IMG/VR virus record: IMGVR_UViG_3300040815_001785
Location: 1-36,260 of that record
DNA from: a virus
DNA length: 36,260 nucleotides
Reading direction: 5' to 3' (one strand)
This document shows positions 9,136-36,260 of the stretch, in pieces. The notes beneath the pieces were generated by a model. The model searched no databases and was not told the DNA's origin. It was given only the letters and a program-made list of their open reading frames with translations. Position 1 is the first letter of the stretch, and the number at the start of each line of letters is the position of its first letter. The translations under genes were made by a program, and so were the position numbers.

Positions 9136-10398
9136 ATGGCTACGCTCACGCTAAATACAGGTAACGTAGCCAGACAGTTCGGTACGTTCTCGTCACAGAT
9201 AACGATGACTCACACCAGTGACGTGACCACCACCATGAAAATGGCTAAGATGCCAACCATTTCTCAGGACTTTGACGTACAAGAAGAAGTAGACGACATC
9301 ACAGAATTTCGCACTAACCTATCGGAAATATCCATTGAACTATTTGATGAATTAGGCAACGGAGACAGCCTGTTTACGTATATAGATGCTCTTGCATTAA
9401 GCGATACAATACAGATTCAAGTTACTACCCCAACGGGTACAGACTACTTCATAGCTACCAAGTCTTCTTGTGAATATGATTGGTTTGCACGTAAAATAAG
9501 CATTAAAGCTCAAGCAGCACTTAGATACGATGTACAAGTAACAAATTATGACACTTCTAGTTACGAGACGAGTGGGGAAACAAATGCCGATGACGGATTA
9601 ATCGTTTCAAGTGATGTGATTAGGGCGTTTTTAGAGGCTCAAGGGTCGTCCCCAACCGTTAAGATACTTGGTCATTTTTCTAGCGTTACTAAGTCTGATA
9701 TAAGCACTATACCATCACCAACATCAATAAGATATATTATATTTGATGGTCAATACGTTGATACGTATGCAGAAGGTCAAGACGTGGTTCTAAAGCTATC
9801 TATCGTTGAAGGCGCTGTTGTAGGAGCCATGATGGGATACGCTTTTTACGTGCGTAGAAACTTTGCTAGTACATCCGATAGTGACTACTACGCTCAAATA
9901 GGCTCATCCGACCTTAAATCGTATGGGGTCTCGTTCAATGACAGGCACGTGCGTAATTTTAATAGCACTCTTGCGATACAAGACAACATTGATGGCGCAC
10001 AAATAAGTACAGCCACAACTGAAGTCATTGATAGTACAGGGGCGCAAGACATAGCCATAAACTACTACGTGCCTGATATGCACACGGTATTTTTTGACAC
10101 TACCGAGTCACCACAAAAATGGGAGCTAGCAACCACAGGGGCTAGTGCCTTGTCTCAATCCGATATGGACGATATATCTGATGACGCTCGTGACTCTTAT
10201 AAAAAGTCATTGGGCATAACATCTTCGTATTCCGTTGACTTTGAGATATTTGGTATAAGCACACTCAAGCCTTATCAATTCATACAGTTTGACTCGGACA
10301 TACACCCCACCGTTAACAGTAAAAAAGTACGCCCATCCTATTTGGAGTATGACCTAGAGTCCGATACAATCAAGGGCGAAGGGTATATTATTGGCTAA
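9136..10398 (+). CDS. Putative distal tail / baseplate protein
   Basis: 420 residues directly after the tape measure gene, the usual place of the distal tail protein and baseplate hub. Beta-rich, with an acidic central part. The C-terminal 60 residues (SVDFEIFGISTLKPYQFIQFD and onward) resemble the beta region that many baseplate hub proteins use for docking. I do not recognise a peptidase or lysozyme domain. The stop lies 8 bases inside the following gene, which indicates translational coupling. Structural role is from position. Confidence 0.5.
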   Translation: MATLTLNTGNVARQFGTFSSQITMTHTSDVTTTMKMAKMPTISQDFDVQEEVDDITEFRTNLSEISIELFDELGNGDSLFTYIDALALSDTIQIQVTTPTGTDYFIATKSSCEYDWFARKISIKAQAALRYDVQVTNYDTSSYETSGETNADDGLIVSSDVIRAFLEAQGSSPTVKILGHFSSVTKSDISTIPSPTSIRYIIFDGQYVDTYAEGQDVVLKLSIVEGAVVGAMMGYAFYVRRNFASTSDSDYYAQIGSSDLKSYGVSFNDRHVRNFNSTLAIQDNIDGAQISTATTEVIDSTGAQDIAINYYVPDMHTVFFDTTESPQKWELATTGASALSQSDMDDISDDARDSYKKSLGITSSYSVDFEIFGISTLKPYQFIQFDSDIHPTVNSKKVRPSYLEYDLESDTIKGEGYIIG

Positions 10399-10906
10399 AC
10401 TCACCGACATAGTAATCATCACTGATTCGGGCGGTACCCAGACGCTAACCATCCAAAATTACGCTGAGACGGACGAACTCCAATATTGGGGGTCAACCTT
10501 CGATGAAGCGGTAGATGGGACGTTACGGAGCAACCTCCGAAGTATTCGTAGAAAGGTAGAACTCACCTATCAGCTGTGTACGACCCCTGATGACTTTAGG
10601 GGTGTGTGCAACAACATCGCACAAGACTTATTGAACGGAGCTGAGTTCGTTTATATCGGTATTGATACTGATAATGTATTTAGAGTAGTTTTAGACGATG
10701 ACTTTGCGCATCGAGTTCAATACGCTAATCAACATGGTCTGTTCATTCCTAAGCTTACATTCAGAAGCACAGAAGGTGACGTGGACATTATTCTGGACTT
10801 TGAAGATTGGCGGTTCATCACCGAGTCTGTAACCGAAGCTAGGGACTACAGGCTCATAACAGAAGCAGTAACTGGAACACCATTAGATTATGGCTCTATC
10901 GTCTAA
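10391..10906 (+). CDS. Baseplate-associated protein, paralogue A
   Basis: 171 residues. It overlaps the gene before it by 8 bases and the gene after it by 17. Residues 35-55 (WGSTFDEAVDGTLRSNLRS) align with residues 41-59 of the next protein (YGSAFDEAIDGSLRHNLRG), and both proteins then have a similar beta pattern, so they are paralogues from a tandem duplication. Their place between the tail hub gene and the long fibre gene suggests small adaptor proteins of the tail tip. No named family was recognised. Confidence 0.55.
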   Translation: MAKLTDIVIITDSGGTQTLTIQNYAETDELQYWGSTFDEAVDGTLRSNLRSIRRKVELTYQLCTTPDDFRGVCNNIAQDLLNGAEFVYIGIDTDNVFRVVLDDDFAHRVQYANQHGLFIPKLTFRSTEGDVDIILDFEDWRFITESVTEARDYRLITEAVTGTPLDYGSIV

Positions 10907-18474: not shown

Positions 18475-18813
18475 TTACTCCGCCTCAGAAATTTTTGCCT
18501 TCATATTTTCACGTACACGAGCGTTCTCGTACAAAGCCATATCTAAGTATGCCTTTACAGCTTGCGTGGCTCTCAGGCGATTCTCGTGCGAATTGAAGCA
18601 TCTTCGGTTTATTAGGTGGTTCACAGTGGTGTGGTCTCGGTATTTTAACTGTTTCGCAATAAATTTTTGCGTAAATCCAAGCTCGCTCAGTGCGAACACT
18701 ACAATTTGCTTGGCATCTACTATTTCTTGGTGTCGATACTTGCTCTTTATCAATTTTTTAGTGATGCCTGTATCTTCGGCTACGTGCTCAATGATGTAAT
18801 CTGCTATGACCAT
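18475..18813 (-). CDS. DnaA domain IV-like DNA-binding protein
   Basis: 112 residues. Residues 26-70 match the C-terminal DNA-binding domain of the bacterial initiator DnaA: a basic start, Q-I-V-V-F-A-L-S-E-L in place of the first helix, then the signature R-D-H-T-T-V (59-64) that contacts the DnaA box. The ATPase domain is missing, so the protein cannot build the DnaA filament. It could bind DnaA boxes and compete with host DnaA, or repress promoters that carry a box. Two perfect TTATCCACA boxes occur in this genome (20793-20801 and 26668-26676), one overlapping the promoter of the replication operon. The regulatory role is inference. Confidence 0.8.
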   Translation of the reverse strand: MVIADYIIEHVAEDTGITKKLIKSKYRHQEIVDAKQIVVFALSELGFTQKFIAKQLKYRDHTTVNHLINRRCFNSHENRLRATQAVKAYLDMALYENARVRENMKAKISEAE

Positions 18814-20792: not shown

Positions 20793-20801
20793 TTATCCAC
20801 A
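20793..20801 (+). promoter_or_regulatory. Perfect DnaA box TTATCCACA
   Basis: The nine bases match the strong DnaA box consensus exactly. The box lies between the terminator hairpin and the end of the 116-residue gene. Together with the box at 26668-26676 and the phage DnaA domain IV-like protein it may form a small regulon. A single 9-mer can occur by chance. Confidence 0.5.
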
Positions 20802-26843: not shown

Positions 26844-27527
26844 ATGGACAAGAGAATCTACCTACCCAACACGACACAAACACCTAATGACATATTAGAT
26901 AAGCACATGAAAGAGCTTAGTGGGAGCGAGTTCAAAGTGATTATGGCGATACTACGTAAGACCCTAGGGTGGCACAAATGGGCTGATTATATAAGTATAT
27001 CTCAAATAATGGAAGCCACTGGGTTATCTAATAGGCAATCCATCAACTGCGTCAACTCCCTAGAAAAGAAGGGCTTTATACGCACCAAGAAGTCTAAGAG
27101 AACAACCACGCTTATAACTATCAATTTTACCGACCCTAGTGAAAAAAGTTCACAAGGTAGTGAAAAAAGTTCACAAGCAACTGGTGAAAAAAGTTCACAC
27201 ACAAAACCTAATAATAAACCTATCAATATAAAACCTAGTAAGTACGTTGACCTATGGAACGAGTGTAACGGAACGAAGCTTCGTATTACGGATGGTAAAC
27301 GTAATCAAATAAAAGCGAGGCTTAAGAAGTTTACTGAGCTAGAGATTGAGTCAGCTATTAAGGCTAGGGGTTCTACTAAGTGGGTTAAAGAGAATAACCA
27401 TCAGAATAATTGGGATGCTTTGTTTAGGAGTGATGATGCCTTAGAGCATTGGTTGTTACGCTCGAATGAACAGAGTCCTGAGAAAGACGCTTGGGCTGAG
27501 AAAGGATTTTCACCTGCCATACTTTAA
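26844..27527 (+). CDS. Replication initiator, lambda O-like
   Basis: 227 residues. Residues 10-95 are a winged helix domain of the phage replication protein O type: a P-N-D-I-L-D-K start, L-S-G-S-E-F-K-V (25-32), G-W-H-K, S-I-S-Q-I-M-E-A-T-G-L-S as recognition segment, then L-E-K-K-G-F-I. Residues 99-119 repeat S-E-K-S-S-Q three times; this stretch is encoded by the DNA iterons. The C-terminal part (130-227) is helical and Trp-rich and probably binds the helicase or its loader. The protein would bind the iterons in its own gene and load the DnaB-type helicase encoded at 22643-23878. Confidence 0.85.
   Translation: MDKRIYLPNTTQTPNDILDKHMKELSGSEFKVIMAILRKTLGWHKWADYISISQIMEATGLSNRQSINCVNSLEKKGFIRTKKSKRTTTLITINFTDPSEKSSQGSEKSSQATGEKSSHTKPNNKPINIKPSKYVDLWNECNGTKLRITDGKRNQIKARLKKFTELEIESAIKARGSTKWVKENNHQNNWDALFRSDDALEHWLLRSNEQSPEKDAWAEKGFSPAIL
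27139..27237 (+). other. Probable replication origin: iterons plus AT-rich region
   Basis: Three copies of GTGAAAAAAGTTCAC (27139-27153, 27160-27174, 27184-27198) start 21 and 24 bases apart, about two helical turns. Each copy has GTGAA/TTCAC arms. They are followed by an AT-rich stretch with three AAACCTA repeats (27204, 27216, 27231). The arrangement copies the lambda origin, where iterons and an AT-rich element lie inside the O gene. Confidence 0.7.
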
Positions 27528-27530
27528 GAG

Positions 27531-27588
27531 ATTTTTACGTACCCTTTAAATTTCTACGTACCCTCTAAAGATTTCTACGTATCCCTAA
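27531..27588 (+). repeat. Repeat island A: three ATTTCTACGTA-type copies
   Basis: Copies begin at about 27531 (ATTTTTACGTACCC), 27549 (AATTTCTACGTACCC) and 27571 (ATTTCTACGTATCCC), with 19 and 21 bp spacing. They start four bases after the initiator stop codon and so lie in its 3' UTR. The same motif recurs in islands B and C. Confidence 0.8.
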
Positions 27589-27636
27589 AAAGTGCAGAAC
27601 ATATGATAGTATGGGTGAAACGAATCCTATCCCTTA

Positions 27637-27653
27637 TTTAGACTCAATCTAAA
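27637..27653. promoter_or_regulatory. Operator palindrome TTTAGA-N5-TCTAAA, copy 1
   Basis: Six-base perfect arms around CTCAA, embedded in the context CCTTA...TT that is shared with the second copy at 29196-29212. It lies about 20-30 bases upstream of the likely -33 region of the first small-gene operon. Confidence 0.65.
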
Positions 27654-27673
27654 TTTCAGTAGTAACATTTTAC

Positions 27674-27707
27674 TTGTGGAATTTGTCTGAAAACAGTTGT
27701 ATCATTC
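27674..27707 (+). promoter_or_regulatory. Probable promoter of small-gene operon 1
   Basis: The segment resembles the clear promoter at 29246: a TTG with TGGAAT downstream, then GTTGTAT at the -7 position. The -7 box (TATCATTC) and the spacing (23 bp) are poor, so the promoter may depend on an activator bound at the palindrome. Confidence 0.35.
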
Positions 27708-27738
27708 TTTCAACCAACAACAAATAAGGAATACTATT

Positions 27739-28002
27739 ATGAAAACAACACAACTAAACTTTATTTCAACTGCTTCACACGGATATTTAGAAGTTCCATT
27801 CACTACTCTTTGGAGTTATATGAATGACAAAGATATATCCGAATACTCTTTTGTTGACTATTTTAATAAAACATTCTACTTGGAAGAGGATTGTGACGCA
27901 CCTTTATTCATAAAGAAAGTTAAAGAAAAGAATAATATTGCAATAACAGAATCTTACTTAGAAGATATACCTGAAACAGCAGAACGTTTATTTCACTCTT
28001 AA
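27739..28002 (+). CDS. Small phage protein with H-G-Y-L motif
   Basis: 87 residues from ATG 27739, chosen because the leader ATAAGGAATACTA lies directly before it and recurs before the next gene. An upstream in-frame ATG at 27697 would put the start in the promoter. The motif S-H-G-Y-L-E-V-P (13-20) and the segment Y-L-E-E-D-C-D-A-P (46-54) define a type of small phage protein I have seen before, of unknown function. First gene of a seven-gene operon. Confidence 0.65.
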   Translation: MKTTQLNFISTASHGYLEVPFTTLWSYMNDKDISEYSFVDYFNKTFYLEEDCDAPLFIKKVKEKNNIAITESYLEDIPETAERLFHS

Positions 28003-28022
28003 AACTAATAAGGAATACTACA

Positions 28023-28262
28023 ATGAAAACATTTACATTCTATGAATACAGACAAGTAAAAATGTACACTAAAGATACATTTGAGATTGAAGCAGAATCA
28101 ATGGATGAAGCTAAAAAGAAGTTAAAGGATATTATTAAAAATGGAGATTCTTGGATTATTAACATAGACTTTGAATATGACTATGAAAGTGTTGAGGATA
28201 TACCCAATACAGAAGAATACTATGATGAAGAAAGTGTAAATATAACTAAGGAGATAAAATAA
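28023..28262 (+). CDS. Small acidic protein, operon 1
   Basis: 79 residues, very acidic with many Tyr (FEYDYESVEDIPNTEEYYDE). The N-terminal part (FTFYEYRQVKMYTKDTFEIEAESMDEAKKKL) is beta-beta-alpha and typical of small phage proteins of unknown function. A strong AAGGA leader is present. The stop overlaps the next start as TAATG. The acidic surface could mimic DNA, but this is speculation. Confidence 0.6.
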   Translation: MKTFTFYEYRQVKMYTKDTFEIEAESMDEAKKKLKDIIKNGDSWIINIDFEYDYESVEDIPNTEEYYDEESVNITKEIK

Positions 28263-28423
28263 TGTACAAAGAAATAACCACTATATTAACAGACTATATA
28301 TCTGTTGTTTGGAATGACGGGGAACGAGAAGAGATACCCATACCCGAACATATATGGAAGCTTGTTGATACTTATTTAGATAATTACGAACAAGAACGAA
28401 ACAAAGAGGAAGGTAATGAATGA
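28262..28423 (+). CDS. Small protein, W-x-D-G-E family copy 1
   Basis: 53 residues. Residues 12-27 (YISVVWNDGEREEIPI) and the helix P-E-H-I-W-K-L-V-D-T-Y-L-D are shared with the protein at 28583-28738. The two are paralogues separated by one gene. A beta hairpin followed by a helix is predicted. Starts in a TAATG overlap. Function unknown. Confidence 0.6.
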   Translation: MYKEITTILTDYISVVWNDGEREEIPIPEHIWKLVDTYLDNYEQERNKEEGNE

Positions 28424-28598
28424 AATAACAGAAGAAATAAGTGAGCAATACGCTAATTGGATATTAACGGAATGTTGTTCACCTATTGACGAAATACAAT
28501 ACTTAGTAAGTGAAATACTAAGCAGTAGAAATGAGGAAGAAAAAAAGAAACATTTAACAGAATCAATTAATGAGGTAATGCAATGGATAAACATATAG
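28416..28598 (+). CDS. Small helical acidic protein
   Basis: 60 residues, wholly helical (starting MNEITEEISEQYANW, ending E-V-M-Q-W-I-N-I), with a C-C pair at 20-21. Overlaps its neighbours by 8 and 16 bases. It lies between the two W-x-D-G-E paralogues, so the block of two genes may have been duplicated as a unit, with the helical gene at 28743 as the counterpart. Confidence 0.55.
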   Translation: MNEITEEISEQYANWILTECCSPIDEIQYLVSEILSSRNEEEKKKHLTESINEVMQWINI

Positions 28599-28738
28599 AA
28601 TCAATAGAAAGTAGCTACATTACAGTTACTTGGGATAATGGAGAAAAAGAAGATATATTAATACCCGATAACATTTGGTGTATGATAGGTAAATATCTTG
28701 ATGAAATAGAACTTGAAAGAAATCAATACGGGGAATAA
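28583..28738 (+). CDS. Small protein, W-x-D/N-G-E family copy 2
   Basis: 51 residues. Residues 12-29 (YITVTWDNGEKEDILIPD) align with copy 1 at 28262-28423, as does the helix I-W-C-M-I-G-K-Y-L-D and the E-x-E-R-N end. Starts inside the previous gene. Conservation of the W, the G-E turn and the I-P motif suggests a folded domain under selection. Function unknown. Confidence 0.6.
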   Translation: MDKHIESIESSYITVTWDNGEKEDILIPDNIWCMIGKYLDEIELERNQYGE

Positions 28739-28742
28739 ACAA

Positions 28743-28913
28743 ATGGATAAACGAATAGTAACTAAATACGTAACGGACGTTATAGACCAAGCACCTCACA
28801 ATCGTGAGGAAGCTATTGAGGAGATAGCGAATGTCTTACACATTGCTTTTAATCGGAATGTAGACCAAGCCAAATCGTTAATTATAAACATACTATTGGA
28901 GATAGAAGAATGA
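28743..28913 (+). CDS. Small helical protein, operon 1
   Basis: 56 residues from the ATG at 28743, four bases after the stop of the previous gene. An in-frame ATG at 28713 overlaps the neighbour and lacks its own leader. The protein has E-E-A-I-E-E-I-A-N-V-L and D-Q-A-K-S-L-I blocks like the first gene of the leftward replication operon (26454-26645). Predicted two-helix protein. Confidence 0.6.
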   Translation: MDKRIVTKYVTDVIDQAPHNREEAIEEIANVLHIAFNRNVDQAKSLIINILLEIEE

Positions 28914-29080
28914 ATGAATTAAGACAATACAAACTGGAGAATCGTTGCCTACAAAAGGAGATAGCCAACAAATTGGGTTATTCCGAATCAAAGGTAACAA
29001 GGCTAATGAAGAAGCACTGTTCATTGAGAAAGATACTGCCAATGGACGAATACGAAAGAGTAATGGAATTACTTGAATAA
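28910..29080 (+). CDS. Small HTH regulator, last gene of operon 1
   Basis: 56 residues. The central segment Q-K-E-I-A-N-K-L-G-Y-S-E-S-K-V-T-R-L-M-K is a helix-turn-helix (second helix SESKVTRLMKKH). Start and preceding stop overlap as ATGA. As the only clear DNA-binding protein in this operon it is a candidate for the protein that binds the TTTAGA-N5-TCTAAA palindromes or the repeat islands. That link is inference. Confidence 0.65.
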   Translation: MNELRQYKLENRCLQKEIANKLGYSESKVTRLMKKHCSLRKILPMDEYERVMELLE

Positions 29081-29150
29081 ATTTCTAGGTACGGGTAATA
29101 AATTTCTACCTATCCTAAATTTCTACCTACCTTAAATTTCTACTTAGGTC
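29081..29150 (+). repeat. Repeat island B: four ATTTCTAC-type copies
   Basis: Copies at about 29081 (ATTTCTAGGTA), 29101 (AATTTCTACCTA), 29118 (AATTTCTACCTA) and 29135 (AATTTCTACTTA), with starts 21, 17 and 17 bp apart. The island begins directly after the HTH gene and the last copy runs into the terminator hairpin. It is a slightly diverged relative of islands A and C (CTACGTA becomes CTACCTA). Confidence 0.8.
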
Positions 29151-29179
29151 TTGGCTTAATTGCTTAGACCTATTTTTTT
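29145..29179 (+). terminator. Terminator of small-gene operon 1
   Basis: Seven-base stem TAGGTCT/AGACCTA with a 14-base loop, followed by TTTTTTT. It places island B in the 3' UTR of operon 1. Confidence 0.85.
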
Positions 29180-29195
29180 GAACTTTATTACCTTA

Positions 29196-29212
29196 TTTAG
29201 ACTTATTCTAAA
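29196..29212. promoter_or_regulatory. Operator palindrome TTTAGA-N5-TCTAAA, copy 2
   Basis: Perfect six-base arms around CTTAT, with the same CCTTA context as copy 1. It ends 33 bases before the -33 element of the operon 2 promoter, which is a position for an activator or a looping repressor. Confidence 0.65.
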
Positions 29213-29245
29213 TTAGCTACTTTTTAAAGAATATTCTTTATTCTT

Positions 29246-29277
29246 TTTGGAATATTGTTTGGAACGTTGTATATTTG
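29246..29277 (+). promoter_or_regulatory. Consensus Bacteroidota promoter of small-gene operon 2
   Basis: TTTG (29246-29249), 20 bases, TATATTTG (29270-29277). Both boxes match the consensus exactly. The first ATG is 31 bases downstream with the leader AACAAGGAATACA. This is the clearest evidence for the host phylum. Confidence 0.8.
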
Positions 29278-29307
29278 TATTAACCTAATAACAAAACAAG
29301 GAATACA

Positions 29308-29499
29308 ATGGAAAAAGACGAACTGATAACAAAAATATCTTTGAGCATAGATTGGGAGCGTATTTGCGACTATTTAGAATATGAATTGGACATTGAAATT
29401 AACCCCGATTGCTATACTTTTAAAGATATTGAAACGACTGTAGCGGAAATGCTTTTGGAAGCATTGAAAGAAGAGCCAAATTTTACTTACAAATACTAA
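29308..29499 (+). CDS. Small acidic helical protein, operon 2
   Basis: 63 residues, acidic (starting MEKDELITKISLSIDWERI), helical with an E-Y-E-L-D-I-E-I strand in the middle. It has the early leader AAGGAATACA. No family recognised. First gene of four in this operon. Confidence 0.55.
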   Translation: MEKDELITKISLSIDWERICDYLEYELDIEINPDCYTFKDIETTVAEMLLEALKEEPNFTYKY

Positions 29500-29520
29500 A
29501 CAAAACAAGGAATACAACCA

Positions 29521-29928
29521 ATGGAATATTTTAACAACTTAGGAAAAGCTTATCAAACAGAGCTTTTAGAGCTTATCAAAGACGAAATAGAACACAACTG
29601 CTTACAGTCTGACACAATTAGTGAGAGATACTTTGACGTGTCAGAATTTCATTCAAAGCTATTTAATGAAAATTATTATTTTATTTACACTTCAGACTGT
29701 AATAATTTTATCAACAGCCAATTTGATAATTCTTTCAATGCTATTGAGATTGTCAAAGACTATGAGGAAAGCAATTTTGGAACGTTCAACACAACTATTC
29801 AAGCTTTCAACATTGCTAATATGCTTATTTACATAATAGGTGAAGACTTAATATATAACGTCTTAAACATTGAAGATGAAACAACAGCTAAAGAAATATT
29901 AACAAAAGTAAACAACTTAATACAATGA
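29521..29928 (+). CDS. Unrecognised acidic protein, operon 2
   Basis: 135 residues, rich in Asn, Asp, Glu, Phe and Tyr. Helical start (FNNLGKAYQTELLELIKDE) and end, with two aromatic blocks between (NYYFIYTSDCNN and NIANMLIYIIGEDLIYNV). It carries the AAGGAATAC leader. The acidic, Asn-rich composition is like many early phage host-takeover or anti-defence proteins, but no family was recognised. Confidence 0.55.
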   Translation: MEYFNNLGKAYQTELLELIKDEIEHNCLQSDTISERYFDVSEFHSKLFNENYYFIYTSDCNNFINSQFDNSFNAIEIVKDYEESNFGTFNTTIQAFNIANMLIYIIGEDLIYNVLNIEDETTAKEILTKVNNLIQ

Positions 29929-30155
29929 GAAAATACAACTACATTCGAACCAATAGAAAAGAATTAAGTTTAACTCAATGTGAGTTAATATCAATGGTGA
30001 ACCACAATTTAAGTGAAATAAACAGTTTATATAGGTTAAGCCAGTCAAGACTATCTTTCCTGGAAAGACTTAACACAGACGAACTTTTAAGTAAATTAAA
30101 TGTATTAGAGTATAAGCAACTTAAAACAATCTTTAACGAATTACAGGGGATATAA
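29925..30155 (+). CDS. Putative XRE-type HTH protein, operon 2
   Basis: 76 residues. R-K-E-L-S-L-T-Q-C-E-L (11-21) and the later L-S-Q-S-R-L-S-F-L-E-R (38-48) have the spacing of the helix-turn-helix of Cro/CI-type repressors, in which L-T-Q-x-E-L precedes an S-Q-x-x-I-S-x-x-E-R recognition part. The first helix and the loop are somewhat longer than usual. Overlaps neighbours by 4 bases and 1 base. It could regulate the small-gene operons. Confidence 0.5.
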   Translation: MRKYNYIRTNRKELSLTQCELISMVNHNLSEINSLYRLSQSRLSFLERLNTDELLSKLNVLEYKQLKTIFNELQGI

Positions 30156-30352
30156 TGTATACAACATATATAGAGACTATAAAACACAATGCACATAGAG
30201 TTATTAAGACTTATAAGCATAGCGAGTTAATATATAAGACAATAGGAATAGGCTATACCAAAAAACAATCTTTGAGCATTCACGAGAAAGAACTTTCAAA
30301 GATGGGATATAATTGTTGTGGTCAAAATACCACCTATATTAATATGACTTAA
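30155..30352 (+). CDS. Small basic protein, last gene of operon 2
   Basis: 65 residues, basic (starting MYTTYIETIKHNAHRVIKTY), with a Cys-Cys pair near the C-terminus. ATG shares its A with the TAA of the previous gene. No family recognised. A terminator follows 24 bases after the stop. Confidence 0.55.
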   Translation: MYTTYIETIKHNAHRVIKTYKHSELIYKTIGIGYTKKQSLSIHEKELSKMGYNCCGQNTTYINMT

Positions 30353-30375
30353 CCTAAAAACCGTCAACCATTTAC

Positions 30376-30407
30376 AGCCCTATTTTAAACGATAGGGCTA
30401 TTTTTTT
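30376..30407 (+). terminator. Terminator of small-gene operon 2
   Basis: Eight-base perfect arms AGCCCTAT/ATAGGGCT with an eight-base loop, then seven T after one A. Confidence 0.9.
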
Positions 30408-30650
30408 GCCCTTTAATTACGGTAGTTAACCTATCTCAATACAATAGCCATAGAGAGCCTATATTTTACGTTTAAAGCGTTCAAACGTATAAAGCCATAT
30501 CAATCAAAGGAAATTTTTTGGATAGCTTAGGATTGAAATTTGGTAGCTTAAAATGCAAATAGGGGGATATGTGTTAAATTTGGTTGGGTGGGGGGCATAA
30601 TACCATCCCTACCGCAAAAACTAAATTTTCACCAAACCCTGTCAATGTTG
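30408..30650 (+). other. Gene-free region upstream of the packaging genes
   Basis: Between the operon 2 terminator and repeat island C there is no convincing ORF. I see an ACGTTT/AAACGT inverted repeat (30468-30488), two TAGCTTA-N6-AAAT direct repeats 21 bp apart (30523 and 30544), and a G-rich hairpin with a 9-pair interrupted stem (30582-30613) containing six consecutive G. It has the look of a regulatory region for the terminase operon, or of a packaging-site region next to terS. Neither is proven. Confidence 0.4.
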
Positions 30651-30723
30651 GATTTCTACGTAGGATACTTGCTTTTTGAGAAATTTCTACGTAAGGTGTG
30701 TAAACTACAATAAATTTCTACGT
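30651..30723 (+). repeat. Repeat island C: three ATTTCTACGTA copies, 31 bp apart
   Basis: GATTTCTACGTA at 30651, AAATTTCTACGTA at 30681 and AAATTTCTACGTA at 30712. The TACG steps are exactly 31 bp apart. The third copy runs to within one base of the start codon at 30725, so a bound protein would affect translation or transcription of the packaging operon. Confidence 0.85.
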
Positions 30724-30724
30724 A

Positions 30725-30898
30725 ATGACGTGGCACAAGAAGTCGAGAATCGAGTCAAAAGAGGAGCTAATAGAGGAGATTAAGGTGGTTATCGAGTGCT
30801 TGCACGGGATACCATCAATGTCTGATAAGCTGCCTAATTATATATATAACCGCATAGAATCCATTATAGAGTATGTCAAAGAAAAAGGCTGGGACTAA
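30725..30898 (+). CDS. Small protein preceding terminase small subunit
   Basis: 57 residues beginning MTWHKKSRIESKEELIEEIK, helical. The start is at the last copy of island C and the end overlaps the terminase gene by 26 bases. No family recognised. The overlap with terS in another frame supports expression as one operon. Confidence 0.55.
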   Translation: MTWHKKSRIESKEELIEEIKVVIECLHGIPSMSDKLPNYIYNRIESIIEYVKEKGWD

Positions 30899-31448
30899 CG
30901 AGTTTAGCCCTGAAGAGAAAGTGGCTATTCTGAGGGAAATTGAGGTGATGGGCAACGTGTCCAAAGTAGCTGAAAAGTGGGGAGTGTCTAGACAGTCCAT
31001 ATATAACTGGCAAGCTCAGAGAAGAAACCTTGATGAGGAGATAATGATAAGGGAGCAAGCTAAGGACGTTGTGGCACGCTCAAAATTCGACCCAGAGCTA
31101 CTAAAAGACCTTGAGCAGTACCGTAACACTCTTCAGTTCATTGGGACGCTAGAGGAGCGAAAAGAGAAGATGTCGGCTAAAGTAGAGTTCATGCTCATTA
31201 AGATTACGACTCTATTAGAGAATCATCCTGACCTAGATGAGATTCACCCGAAAGACTTGAGCAAGATAATGAAGGATTTGCATGACGTGCGTAAAGAACT
31301 GAGCAATGAACCGACCATTATTATTGAGTACAAGAATAAGCTGAGGGAACAAACCCTTCAGGTACTTCAGGACTTCTTGGACTTAGACCAGCTAAAAGAG
31401 TTTGCGCATAGGATGGAAGCAATCGAAGCGGACTACGAGGTTTTATGA
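30873..31448 (+). CDS. terS: Terminase small subunit (TerS)
   Basis: 191 residues. Residues 12-52 (E-K-V-A-I-L-R-E-I, then V-S-K-V-A-E-K-W-G-V-S-R-Q-S-I-Y-N-W) are a helix-turn-helix, as in TerS proteins that recognise the packaging site. The rest (70-185) is a long helical oligomerisation part. TerS rings bind phage DNA and hand it to TerL for cutting and packaging. Position upstream of the terminase large subunit genes agrees. The HTH also resembles transposase-type DNA-binding domains, a known similarity in this family. Confidence 0.75.
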   Translation: MSKKKAGTNEFSPEEKVAILREIEVMGNVSKVAEKWGVSRQSIYNWQAQRRNLDEEIMIREQAKDVVARSKFDPELLKDLEQYRNTLQFIGTLEERKEKMSAKVEFMLIKITTLLENHPDLDEIHPKDLSKIMKDLHDVRKELSNEPTIIIEYKNKLREQTLQVLQDFLDLDQLKEFAHRMEAIEADYEVL

Positions 31449-31573
31449 AAAAGTTAGTACCGATGTGTATTGTCGTATTGACCGAGTTTATAGGGTGCTT
31501 TATCTTGTGCGCATCCTGTAACTCCTTAACGACAGACCAATCATCGACAATCTACAACTTAATCTGTTCTTAA
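31445..31573 (+). CDS. Small secreted or lipoprotein-like peptide
   Basis: 42 residues. A basic start (MKK) is followed by a hydrophobic segment (LVPMCIVVLTEFIGCFILCASC) with several Cys. Possible lipoboxes are F-I-G-C and C-A-S-C, both imperfect. ATGA overlap with terS and TAATG overlap with the next gene indicate coupled translation. It could be an outer-membrane spanin-type lipoprotein matching the coiled-coil membrane protein two genes downstream. Confidence 0.45.
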   Translation: MKKLVPMCIVVLTEFIGCFILCASCNSLTTDQSSTIYNLICS

Positions 31574-32257: not shown

Positions 32258-32354
32258 CTTTAAGTGCGTCAGCCAACTGGCTGGTCACAAGCGTTGCCGT
32301 AAACAGTGCCGCCTTTGTAAGGAGCATTACGGTGGCGAAGCCAAAACAAAATAA
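32235..32354 (+). CDS. Small Cys-rich zinc-finger-like protein
   Basis: 39 residues. Four Cys (C-x10-C-x3-C-x2-C) and two His lie in a strongly basic context (GHKRCRKQCRLCKEH), consistent with one zinc-binding knuckle. It overlaps the coiled-coil gene by 23 bases and the terminase large subunit start by 23 bases. It may be a nucleic-acid-binding helper of packaging, but the role is unknown. Confidence 0.5.
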   Translation: MKDSSSNNFKCVSQLAGHKRCRKQCRLCKEHYGGEAKTK

Positions 32355-33144
32355 TTGGTCTAATCTATTAGTCAACATAGTAGGACACGAGCCACCCCCT
32401 GACTCGTTAGACCTGCGTAATTCTTTTATCGAAAACTGTCTGGCTGACCAAGACGGTTTTAAGGTTACCCAAGCTGAGATTCATCACACGATGCAGAAGG
32501 GTATCTATGACTGGGAGCAACAGGCGCTATCCAAGAACGCTCGTCTTAATGGGTTAATTAGAGCGCCCTACAACACAGGAAAGTCGCAACAAGTTCCTAT
32601 TGGTTTGTCTGCCTACATGACCACCCGTAAGCACGAGCTAGAAACACTAATAGTATCGGCAGACGGTGGTATCTCCACCAAAAGGATATTGTCTCTAAGA
32701 GCCTTGTTTCAGAGTGATATGTACCGTTACTGGTGCAGAGAGCATAACTTTAACCCTGTTGAGTTTGATAGAACGGACACGGGGTCAACACAGCGTATTA
32801 TTGTTAAGAGTCGTAACCGTACTGGTAATCCAACGTATGAGGCGTATGCCGTCCTTACGCAAACCACAGGACAGCGTGCTGGAGTGCTGATTCTTGATGA
32901 TGTGTGTAACGATGAAGACCGTATATCTACCGCTCGTAGGGAAACGGTTTGGAACAAGGTATCCAACACATGGATTAAGCGGGTTCACGACAAAGGTATT
33001 GTTTTGAGTGTGTGCACCCCATATCATCCGAATGACGCTAACAGCAGGCTCATGAAGTCTGGTATCTTTAACGTACTTCAAATATCCGTAAAAGAAGATA
33101 AGACTGGGTACAAAGTAGAGGAGTGGAACAACTTTGAAAAGTAA
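32332..33144 (+). CDS. terL: Terminase large subunit, ATPase half (split terL)
   Basis: 270 residues, GTG start. The packaging ATPase motifs are complete: Walker A APYNTGKS (78-85), Walker B VLILDD (185-190), and the coupling motif region C-T-P-Y-H-P-N-D (228-235). The protein stops at residue 270, where a complete TerL would continue into the nuclease domain. That domain is encoded separately at 33893-34678. Two genes are inserted between. The halves together (270 + 261 residues) have the length of a normal TerL, so little or no terminase sequence was lost. Confidence 0.85.
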   Translation: MAKPKQNNWSNLLVNIVGHEPPPDSLDLRNSFIENCLADQDGFKVTQAEIHHTMQKGIYDWEQQALSKNARLNGLIRAPYNTGKSQQVPIGLSAYMTTRKHELETLIVSADGGISTKRILSLRALFQSDMYRYWCREHNFNPVEFDRTDTGSTQRIIVKSRNRTGNPTYEAYAVLTQTTGQRAGVLILDDVCNDEDRISTARRETVWNKVSNTWIKRVHDKGIVLSVCTPYHPNDANSRLMKSGIFNVLQISVKEDKTGYKVEEWNNFEK

Positions 33145-33562
33145 AGTGTGTAATACGTGTCACATCTCTAAGCCGTTATCTGAGTTTAACAGAGACAATC
33201 ACGCATCCGATGGTCATAGGTCTCGTTGTAGTAAGTGTAGAAACAAATCACGAAGAGAAACAGAAAAGAAAAAATATACCTACAAAGTATTTAGAGGGAT
33301 AGTCTACTGCGTTGAATGTGAAGGTTTTTATAAGATAGGAGTAACATCGTATGGTATTCGTAAACGACTTCAATCAATACAAACGGGTAACCCATTTGAG
33401 GTAAAAATTGTTTGGGTCAAGCGCACGAATAACGTAGGTAAATACGAGCGTATGCTTCACCAACAACTAAAAGACAATCACGTAAGGGGTGAGTGGTATG
33501 ACATACCACAAGTACTAGCCAAAGAACTTAAACACATAGTGAGACACGATGAAGAAAGCTAA
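33134..33562 (+). CDS. GIY-YIG homing endonuclease (T5orf172/MUG113-like)
   Basis: 142 residues, TTG start 8 codons' length inside the end of the terminase ATPase half (overlap 11 bases). The N-terminus has a zinc knuckle (C-N-T-C at 6-9, C-S-K-C at 32-35). The catalytic part has V-Y-C-V (57-60), F-Y-K-I-G-V-T-S (65-72), R-K-R-L-Q (76-80), a Glu at 105, H109 and G-E-W-Y (119-122), the order of T5orf172/MUG113-type GIY-YIG nucleases. Such enzymes cut DNA at an uninterrupted target site and spread their gene by repair. The target would be the junction between the two TerL halves. Confidence 0.75.
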   Translation: MKSKVCNTCHISKPLSEFNRDNHASDGHRSRCSKCRNKSRRETEKKKYTYKVFRGIVYCVECEGFYKIGVTSYGIRKRLQSIQTGNPFEVKIVWVKRTNNVGKYERMLHQQLKDNHVRGEWYDIPQVLAKELKHIVRHDEES

Positions 33563-33896
33563 AGTAATAATGTACGCTCAGTTCGGGGTACACGTAGAAC
33601 AGGACGAGATAGACTACATAAAAGCAAAGATGGACGACTTCTTAGAGATGATAGAGGCTGAGCTTGTTGGTCAAAAATGGGAAATACTATCCAAGAACCA
33701 AAGCTCTAAGGCGATACACGAAATTATAAAGCAATGCGGAAAGAATGGATGGGCTATCCTGACATACGACCTTAAAACACTACACCAGCACCATTCAGGT
33801 GCGATGTCCTTAATAGCGGAGGGTAACGATGTCGGTGTGCCCGTCTATTTCATTGAAGGTGAAGCTGTCATGCAAACATTATTTAGTAGAATATGA
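33549..33896 (+). CDS. Degenerate serine-resolvase-like protein
   Basis: 115 residues. The order of strands and helices fits the N-terminal domain of serine recombinases: a first strand VIMYAQFGVHVEQDEI in place of Y-A-R-V-S-x4-Q, a long helix, then G-W-A-I-L-T-Y-D-L-K-T-L where resolvases have a V-V-x-x-L-D-R-L core, and G-V-P-V-Y-F-I. The nucleophile Ser position is occupied by Gly and the Arg residues of the active site are missing, so no recombinase activity is expected. There is no DNA-binding domain. It overlaps its neighbours by 14 and 4 bases. Homology is by pattern only. Confidence 0.45.
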   Translation: MKKAKVIMYAQFGVHVEQDEIDYIKAKMDDFLEMIEAELVGQKWEILSKNQSSKAIHEIIKQCGKNGWAILTYDLKTLHQHHSGAMSLIAEGNDVGVPVYFIEGEAVMQTLFSRI

Positions 33897-34678
33897 GAGA
33901 ACCCGATAAGGTATGGGACATTCCTTTATGGGAAACCAATCACAGTAAACAACGGCTACTCCAAGAAGAGGCGATGGATTTTCTGTCGTATAAACTTGGG
34001 TACGAAATGAGCGAGGAAACAGATGACCCGACTAAAAAGGCTTACAAACACTTTGATGGATACAATCACTACCCTGATGGGAATCTTACGGCTCTTGATT
34101 ACGATAGTGGGCATCCTGTCTGGCTTTGTGCTGATTTCAACAGGTCTCCTCATTGTTGGGCTCTTCTCCAAGTTAAAAGAGCTCGTAACGGGCTTAAGCA
34201 GTATGTTATTTTCGATGAAATCTTCTCCAAAGAAGCTCTAACCACCGAACAAGCCCTAAAAGCAGTAGAATTGCTTAATAAATGGGGTATTTCGAAGGTT
34301 TTATTAGCTGGAGACAACACGTCCAACCAAAAAAGTGGTAATTATGGTCGTGTAGGTAAAAACGATTGGGATTACGTGCGAGAAGTGCTTGAAGAGAACA
34401 ATATTTTGTATAAAAACGAGCTAGACATACAAAATCCGAAGCGAAAGGTACGTGTAGATAAAGTAAACAACGTAATTTACGCTGGAACTAATGGAGAAAG
34501 ACGTTTACTGGTCAATACGAGATGTGAACACGTTATAAAAGACTATATGTACTCCATCGTAAACGATAAAGGGCTAAAAATAGACAATGGAGATAGGGGA
34601 CACATGTCGGATGCGACAGATTATGCCATTTGGCGTAATGAGCGAGGTAGTAACTCACCAATGTACGTGTTACGCTAG
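33893..34678 (+). CDS. terL: Terminase large subunit, nuclease half (split terL)
   Basis: 261 residues starting at an ATGA overlap with the resolvase-like gene. The RNase H-like nuclease has its acidic residues in place: D81 in L-C-A-D-F-N-R, D141 in A-G-D-N-T-S, and D240/D243 in G-H-M-S-D-A-T-D-Y-A-I-W. The first 40 residues (REPDKVWDIPLWE...RLLQEEAMDFLSY) are the linker region found in intact TerL between ATPase and nuclease. The domain looks functional. Cutting of concatemers would require association of this protein with the ATPase half at 32332-33144. Confidence 0.85.
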   Translation: MREPDKVWDIPLWETNHSKQRLLQEEAMDFLSYKLGYEMSEETDDPTKKAYKHFDGYNHYPDGNLTALDYDSGHPVWLCADFNRSPHCWALLQVKRARNGLKQYVIFDEIFSKEALTTEQALKAVELLNKWGISKVLLAGDNTSNQKSGNYGRVGKNDWDYVREVLEENNILYKNELDIQNPKRKVRVDKVNNVIYAGTNGERRLLVNTRCEHVIKDYMYSIVNDKGLKIDNGDRGHMSDATDYAIWRNERGSNSPMYVLR

Positions 34679-35615: not shown

Positions 35616-36260
35616 TGATAGACACCTCAAAGTTATATTCCGTATCCAAAGACGCTGTCGAAGACATCGTAATGAAAGAAACTCGTCACCCGTATTACAG
35701 CGTGGTTCTTGACCGTGCTAAGATGATGAACAGCTGGTTTCAGGCAGAGTATGATGAGTACACAGCTATTTCTAGCACCGTCTTTTCTGATAAGTCCTAC
35801 ATCATTGACCAGAGCAGCATAGAATCTGATGAGGAGTACAGAGAGCGTTTATCCAGAATGAAGTTGTTTCCGCTAGAGCAGAAGTTCTTCTCAGCCCAGC
35901 AGCGTATCTATGACGAAAACAACGTCAACAGAATGTACCCTGAAAACAAAGATTTCTGGAAGTGGAAAGAGTCTAACTTTGATGATGCAGGATGTTCGAT
36001 CACTGAGTTTTACCGAGACAAGGTTCTCTTCGTAAAAGAGGTTCTTGGATTCGGTGCGGTAGTAACCGACCTTATGATGGATGGTAACGGGAATCCTGTT
36101 ACCGATACAGACGGCAACGTAGTTCCTTACAACTTTGTTGTGCGTCCCCACGAAATATGGAACTTTCAAGTCAGACAAGGCGCTCTCACGTTGCTTGTTA
36201 CTCGTCAAATGTATTACGACCTAGACAACATCAAGAAGCATAAGTGGACTGCCTATACAC
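35615..36260 (+). CDS. Portal protein, 5' part (continues at 1-1298)
   Basis: The true start of the portal gene, ATG in a TAATG overlap with the small gene before it. The first residues are MIDTSKLYSVSKDAVEDIV. The frame remains open to the window end and joins the frame at the left end without a gap, because 35877 corresponds to base 1. From 35877 onward the coding sequence is present twice, in two versions that differ by 10 bases. Confidence 0.85.
   Translation, partial: MIDTSKLYSVSKDAVEDIVMKETRHPYYSVVLDRAKMMNSWFQAEYDEYTAISSTVFSDKSYIIDQSSIESDEEYRERLSRMKLFPLEQKFFSAQQRIYDENNVNRMYPENKDFWKWKESNFDDAGCSITEFYRDKVLFVKEVLGFGAVVTDLMMDGNGNPVTDTDGNVVPYNFVVRPHEIWNFQVRQGALTLLVTRQMYYDLDNIKKHKWTAYT
35877..36260. 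repeat. Right copy of the long direct repeat at the window ends
   Basis: Matches 1-384 with 10 substitutions and no indels. All but one affected codon is synonymous, which is the pattern of natural strain variation under selection, not of random sequencing error. Confidence 0.95.

Follow-up and report, generated by a model that had tools for sequence, protein, structure and literature searches.

What role does a short sequence repeat play when it recurs in three separate non-coding islands of one phage genome? The question is raised by IMG/VR virus record IMGVR_UViG_3300040815_001785, which was analyzed whole and whose 36,260 nucleotides are referred to here as the window. Island A follows a replication initiator gene, island B follows a small helix-turn-helix (HTH) gene and island C precedes the packaging operon. 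A preliminary description of the sequence offered three options for the repeats, namely sites for a phage regulator, phage-specific promoter elements or RNA elements in untranslated regions. Our analysis supports the first of these, on the grounds of a lock to the late promoter and a family-wide orientation with transcription, and speaks against the other two. The repeats are real and family-wide, and we hold with moderate confidence that they constitute a set of regulatory sites, most likely operators at the late promoter together with stoperator-like arrays between early transcription units.

The repeats are clustered and point in one direction

Ten copies of RATTTYTA[CG]NTA were found, all on the + strand and in the three islands where they had been reported (Table 1). 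The unit is 12-13 bp long and asymmetric, with a RATTTYTA core and no dyad symmetry. The measured spacings of 19 and 21 bp in island A, 21, 17 and 17 bp in island B, and 31 and 31 bp in island C agree with the ranges given earlier (17-21 bp and 31 bp), and the third copy of island C, described as ending at a start codon, directly abuts the ATG at 30725 (30712-30724). The count of ten stands for the + strand, but two elements had been missed: a weaker copy in island C, AATTTTCAC at 30624-30632 (C0), and a palindrome, CCTTATTTAGACTYAWTCTAAATT, located 3' of islands A and B.

Over the whole window, the strict pattern RATTTYTA[CG][CGT]TA matched 10 times on the + strand and 0 times on the - strand, every match lying within the three islands, whereas dinucleotide shuffles of the window gave a mean of 0.26 matches and a maximum of 2. 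The exact 9-mer AATTTCTAC showed 7 matches versus 0.57 expected, one of which lies outside the islands (24826, - strand). A loose 13-mer with 3 mismatches allowed gave 29 matches versus 21, which is not significant alone, so the evidence for the repeats is their clustering and their strand. Transposon ends of the TnsB-like array type were considered and rejected, since all copies are unidirectional and no transposase was seen.

The same 9-mer coincides with half of the Cas12a repeat handle, the 5' one, an identity that would suit mimics of Cas12a repeats. RNA anti-CRISPRs of this kind exist (PMC10651486). However, only the nine bases are shared with Cas12a CRISPR repeats: the pairing arm GTAGA, the partner in the UCUAC-loop-GUAGA hairpin, is absent, and the window contains no TCTAC-N0-9-GTAGA, which refutes the hairpin form. 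In addition, relatives swap C for T and vary the rest of the sequence, and copies sit inside a promoter spacer. We regard a Cas12a-repeat mimic as extremely improbable.

The repeats are a hallmark of an uncultured phage family

Relatives were drawn from IMG/VR, where 66 loci were reached through the terminase small subunit, 3 through the initiator and 65 through the DnaB helicase, and the longer contigs were read. Strands were counted in the 16 relatives that carry the whole initiator-to-terminase stretch. In this stretch, 70 kb in total, the core matched 192 times on the + strand and 14 times on the - strand, whereas the remaining 263 kb of these genomes gave 59 and 55 matches, respectively. 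Because the genomes are related, the p-value of the strand skew (4e-41) should not be read literally, but every one of them has the same skew. The motif of the islands is conserved in related phages and restricted to the initiator-to-terminase stretch, and neither the balanced counts in the rest of the relatives nor the shuffles of the window bear out the concern that it might be frequent at random elsewhere. The repeats are a hallmark of the whole family. This family has no cultured relative that we could find: no DNA or portal-protein relative was detected among 50,697 phage records, in which helicase matches are at most 27% identical, and DnaB has no relative in 84,980 bacterial and archaeal genomes.

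The core RATTTYTA is common to the lineages, and the tail varies between them while being fairly uniform inside many. The tail is CGTA(CCC) in the group of the window, CCCAT in G012, G015, G024 and G025, TGTA at 16-bp spacing in G007, G026 and G029, and GGGGGG in G031 and G021. Within one genome, the tails at the late promoter and those in the arrays do not always agree, which makes the core the probable recognized part of the repeat. A Rho site was rejected as an explanation, as the core is kept in relatives with G-rich or C-poor tails. Separately, two intergenic regions of relatives (L084, G004 31010-31492, and L097, G017 10127-10689) contain long AT-rich arrays that mix ATTTTTATATACCC with reverse-strand TAGAAATATA units and are far larger than the arrays of the window.

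Island C is a putative late promoter with repeats built into it

Island C is no plain gap; judged from its sequence, it is the probable promoter of the late (packaging) operon. Its core reads TTG-N20-TATAGTTTG (alternatively written TTGC-N19-TATAGTTTG-like) and is of the Bacteroidota type, with both the TTG and the TAnnTTTG-like boxes of the Bacteroidota housekeeping promoter present. It is close to the flavobacterial consensus TAnnTTTG (PMC9723704), although in the phage -7 box TA and TTTG are one base further apart. From this promoter type we guess that the host phylum is Bacteroidota. Since the promoter is ordinary for this type and the repeats are additional to it, the proposal that the repeats are phage-specific promoter elements is not supported.

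The positions of the repeats are fixed relative to the promoter. In closer relatives, sites start at -45, -18, +13 and +44 from the TTG; a second group has them at -24 and +13, and C2 starts at +13 in most others. The weak copy C0 falls between -45 and -47 in closer relatives, and others have it at -24. When the G of the -7 box is set to -5, C1 extends from about -54 to -43, C2 from -23 to -12 and C3 from +9 to +20. Among 21 non-redundant promoters, the C2 core ATTTNTA occupies spacer positions 14-20 and reaches 1.55-2.0 bits at 6 of its 7 positions, the N being variable. It is conserved to the same degree as the promoter boxes and is kept even in lineages that seemingly lack C2, whereas the spacer around it is mostly far less conserved, except for TT at positions 6-7. 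Because the copies are locked around and inside the promoter, DNA binding is favored over an RNA-only element.

We suggest that a single sequence-specific regulator recognizes the repeats as asymmetric DNA sites of 12-13 bp that are oriented with transcription. In island C they would act as operators: a protein bound at C1, at C2 between the -33 and -7 boxes and at C3 at the start of the leader would deny RNA polymerase access to the late promoter for as long as it is neither removed nor outnumbered. Repression is the simplest reading of island C, because a protein bound at C2 and C3 would exclude polymerase. The alternative that the sites bind an activator, which recruits or reshapes RNA polymerase at the late promoter while islands A and B serve the downstream small-operon promoters, draws on the same strict positions, with C1 directly 5' of the -33 box and C2 within the 20-bp spacer. 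Class II and MerR-type activators bind at such promoter positions. An activator that depends on contact would, however, poorly tolerate an upstream site that shifts between lineages (-18, -24 or -45 from the TTG); moreover, C3 lies 3' of the start site, and islands A and B are ~90-170 bp from the next promoter. We consider activation unlikely, although it is the rival to which we give the most weight.

The conservation of C2 also bears on the idea that the repeats are recombination linkers, which help to swap small-gene cassettes and are kept for exchange rather than for regulation. The gene content between the islands does vary greatly among relatives, as such linkers would allow. Exchange leaves unexplained why the C2 core is conserved within a promoter spacer and why the spacing there is maintained, and we think this explanation very unlikely.

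Islands A and B lie between early transcription units

Islands A and B begin at the stop codons of the initiator gene and the small HTH gene, respectively. Island A starts 2-24 nt 3' of the initiator stop codon in 11 genomes and island B 0-4 nt 3' of the mini-HTH stop codon in 8 genomes, where the final A of the stop codon often doubles as the motif's first base. The island A array is retained in the relatives G032, G033 and G011. In relatives, arrays flank intrinsic terminators on both sides, as is expected of DNA sites, and sometimes lie within terminator loops. A protein bound to the sites of islands A and B, which are situated after the last codon of an early unit and before the next promoter, would probably stop or slow read-through in the manner of a stoperator.

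Elements acting as RNA in leaders and trailers, for antitermination, termination or stability, would account for the strict sense orientation, and some copies do lie in terminator loops or arms (G014, G019 and G011). Such elements are nonetheless disfavored. C1 and C2 cannot serve as RNA elements of the late promoter, since C1 lies upstream of it and C2 inside it, and both are outside its transcript. RNA structure in islands A and B showed no excess over shuffles (z -0.4 and -1.0), copies occur on both sides of T runs, and no Rfam family was matched. RNA elements therefore appear improbable as an explanation.

Direct repeats at 17-21 bp that follow an initiator gene immediately and run in one direction also recall replication iterons, either bound by the initiator or serving as replication or fork-arrest sites. 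The iterons of theta-replicating plasmids and lambda-type origins are likewise direct repeats about two helical turns apart beside an initiator gene. In contrast to these, the phage repeats are also found at a promoter, where the copies of island C are locked, and the same repeats are carried by relatives in which a gene of family F5, rather than F2, occupies the initiator place, two families without a BLAST match to each other; the O-like gene, moreover, has a separate set of 3-4 palindromic units at 21, 21 and 24 bp. Because the O-like gene has its own iterons and the repeats persist beside another gene family, we consider initiator iterons improbable too, hardly more credible than RNA elements. 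The initiator was also rejected as the binding factor, as two gene families occupy its place beside the same repeats.

The iterons of the O-like gene in the window are three copies of TAGTGAAAAAAGTTCACAAG inside the gene (27137-27201), spaced at 21 and 24 bp and followed by AT-rich DNA; together they have the sequence features of a lambda-type origin. The corresponding units of relatives differ in sequence.

The palindrome CCTTATTTAGACTYAWTCTAAATT occurs at 27632-27655 and 29191-29214, 5' of both small-operon promoters. In the window and its closest relatives, the palindrome TTTAGACTYAWTCTAAA lies between the array and the small-operon promoter, and TTTACATTCTTTTACA replaces it in G003, G004 and G017. 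The palindrome co-occurs with the HTH protein of the type encoded at 28910; in G033, which has the palindrome, the record ends before the place of the 28910-type gene. Because the palindrome goes with this protein and is separate from the family-wide repeats, there are two regulatory layers, of which the repeats are the family-wide one.

Candidate binding proteins

The preliminary description named the HTH proteins encoded at 28910 and 29925 as possible regulators. This remains tenable for the family as a whole, since a mini-HTH profile detects one or two members, next to the islands, in most genomes of the phage family. The protein at 28910 was rejected as the sole factor: its close homologues are absent from most repeat-bearing relatives, and it tracks the palindrome instead. 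Mini-HTH proteins are very divergent and present in several copies, and the AlphaFold2 (AF2) model of the 29925 protein (pLDDT 64) is too poor for a structure search.

The second candidate is a stand-alone DnaA domain IV protein, present in nearly all records able to hold it. Its AF2 model has a pLDDT of 89, and the PDB entries that it matches best are complexes with a DnaA box. The boxes to which domain IV binds (TTATCCACA) are asymmetric like the repeats, ~9 bp long and occupied by a monomer, a mode of binding that the repeats may share; ATTTCYACN of the repeats shares TnTCnAC with them, and ATTTCYAC partly resembles TTATCCAC. In the phage proteins, the equivalents of H434, T436 and H439 are invariant and would provide an invariant reading head to fit the invariant repeat core. 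The likeness is incomplete, as the repeats do not satisfy TTWTNCACA and the equivalent of R399 is an invariant Asp. Only 2 TTWTNCACA boxes exist in the window, at 20793 and 26668, both outside the islands. True DnaA boxes occur at conserved places in relatives, one ~30 bp 5' of the DnaA-like gene (seen just 5' of it in G004, G031 and G017) and one before the replication operon. The box 5' of the DnaA-like gene is a more natural target of the protein than the repeats are. Phages of other families that encode a DnaA domain IV have no arrays. With the tail untracked and true boxes located elsewhere, the DnaA-like protein was rejected as the binder of the whole repeat and retained solely as a candidate reader of the invariant core. 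Overall, we place the mini-HTH proteins first but tentatively, the DnaA-like protein and a host factor equally behind them as doubtful, and any other protein as less likely again.

Several observations weigh against operators and stoperator-like arrays. The binding protein is only at the candidate stage: the mini-HTH profile finds no member in G007, G026 and G029, which carry arrays (of the TGTA type, the upstream promoter region having no clear sites), and none in L170 and L171 either. The motif tail does not follow the DnaA-like protein (Mantel r 0.13); G024 and G025 share the same motif with DnaA-like proteins that are 36% identical, whereas the motif differs between G012 and G007, whose proteins are 66% identical. 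The sites are confined to one 4-kb region, unlike the genome-wide sites of mycobacteriophage L5, and no integrase or L5-type repressor turned up among the proteins scanned. Finally, all genes of the region are co-directional, so orientation with transcription and orientation with replication are inseparable.

Genome context

Table 1. Positions of the repeat copies, promoter elements, neighboring genes and candidate regulators in the window.
Feature	Positions	Strand	Basis or remark
Island A copy 1, AGATTTTTACGTA	27529-27541	+	motif search
Island A copy 2, AAATTTCTACGTA	27548-27560	+	motif search
Island A copy 3, AGATTTCTACGTA	27569-27581	+	motif search
Island B copy 1, AAATTTCTAGGTA, overlapping the stop codon of the 28910 gene	29079-29091	+	
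Island B copy 2, AAATTTCTACCTA	29100-29112	+	
Island B copy 3, AAATTTCTACCTA	29117-29129	+	
Island B copy 4, AAATTTCTACTTA, end reaching the terminator stem	29134-29146	+	
Island C weak fourth copy (C0), -45 from TTG	30624-30632	+	kept in relatives
Island C copy 1 (C1), just 5' of the -33 box	30650-30662	+	
Island C copy 2 (C2), in the promoter spacer, touching the -7 box	30681-30693	+	
Island C copy 3 (C3), in the 5' leader, adjoining ATG	30712-30724	+	
Putative late promoter, -33 box TTGC	30669-30672	+	invariant in 21 non-redundant relatives
Putative late promoter, -7 box TAAGGTGTG (TATAGTTTG in most relatives)	30692-30700	+	
Intrinsic-terminator-like hairpin and T run, 3' of island B	29145-29177	+	sequence; fold
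O-like replication initiator gene, directly 5' of island A	26844-27527	+	Phage_rep_O E 7e-12; PHROGs
Mini-HTH protein directly 5' of island B; candidate regulator	28910-29080	+	
Mini-HTH protein, same family as 28910; candidate regulator	29925-30155	+	poor AF2 model
Stand-alone DnaA domain IV protein; candidate regulator	18475-18813	-	PF08299 E 4.5e-14; AF2 model matches 1j1v
57-aa conserved gene, no assigned function, first in late operon	30725-30898	+	in all relatives reaching it
HTH protein, terminase small subunit	30873-31448	+	position and weak profile match

The ends of the record overlap (1-370 and 35890-36260), with nearly identical open reading frames (ORFs) at 15-332 and 35891-36208; the genome is therefore circular or circularly permuted. 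In each of the 13 relatives checked, the large terminase (32332-34678 in the window) is split into separate ORFs, one for the ATPase part and one for a second, terminase-like part, and in some relatives a T5orf172/GIY-YIG-type endonuclease gene lies between them.

Comparison with L5-type operators and stoperators

In cluster A mycobacteriophages (L5, Bxb1 and TipsytheTRex), operators and stoperators are short, asymmetric and oriented with transcription; they lie mostly in short gaps between genes and in some cases inside promoters, and their consensus drifts between lineages (PMC9283540, PMC6550527). The repeats described here are likewise asymmetric without dyad symmetry and oriented (10/0 in the window and 192/14 over 16 genomes), and they are likewise found both in a promoter (island C) and in gaps between transcription units (islands A and B). 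In contrast to the 20-30 sites spread over an L5-type genome, about 10 are present here in one region and in tight tandem arrays, and cluster A phages belong to another phage family and infect another host phylum. None of the proteins that were scanned against Pfam and PHROGs matched the cluster A repressor family (HTH plus stoperator domain), the L5 repressor itself not being compared directly, and no lysogeny gene was found among these proteins. We infer protein binding, repression and an elongation block from the anatomy of the sites. Because the sites are regional, no L5-type repressor was matched and the elongation block is inferred, we claim a resemblance in anatomy and not membership in the L5-type system.

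A bolder idea, which we regard as possible but speculative, is that this uncultured phage family of the Bacteroidota type evolved a stoperator system independently. A single-domain binder, either a mini-HTH protein or a DnaA domain IV freed from DnaA, would act on oriented asymmetric sites. It would shut the late promoter by binding within the spacer and stop early read-through, and the switch may serve to time the lytic cycle rather than to confer lysogenic immunity. Whichever protein binds the repeats, they come with a concrete map of the putative late promoter in a family that, as far as we found, has no cultured relative. One large group of actinobacteriophages is known to use oriented asymmetric repressor sites that also halt elongating polymerase. 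If the idea is correct, the repeats would represent another, unrelated example, from phages that infect a different kind of host and apparently lack lysogeny genes, in which both the repeated evolution of such sites and their use in lytic timing could be tested.

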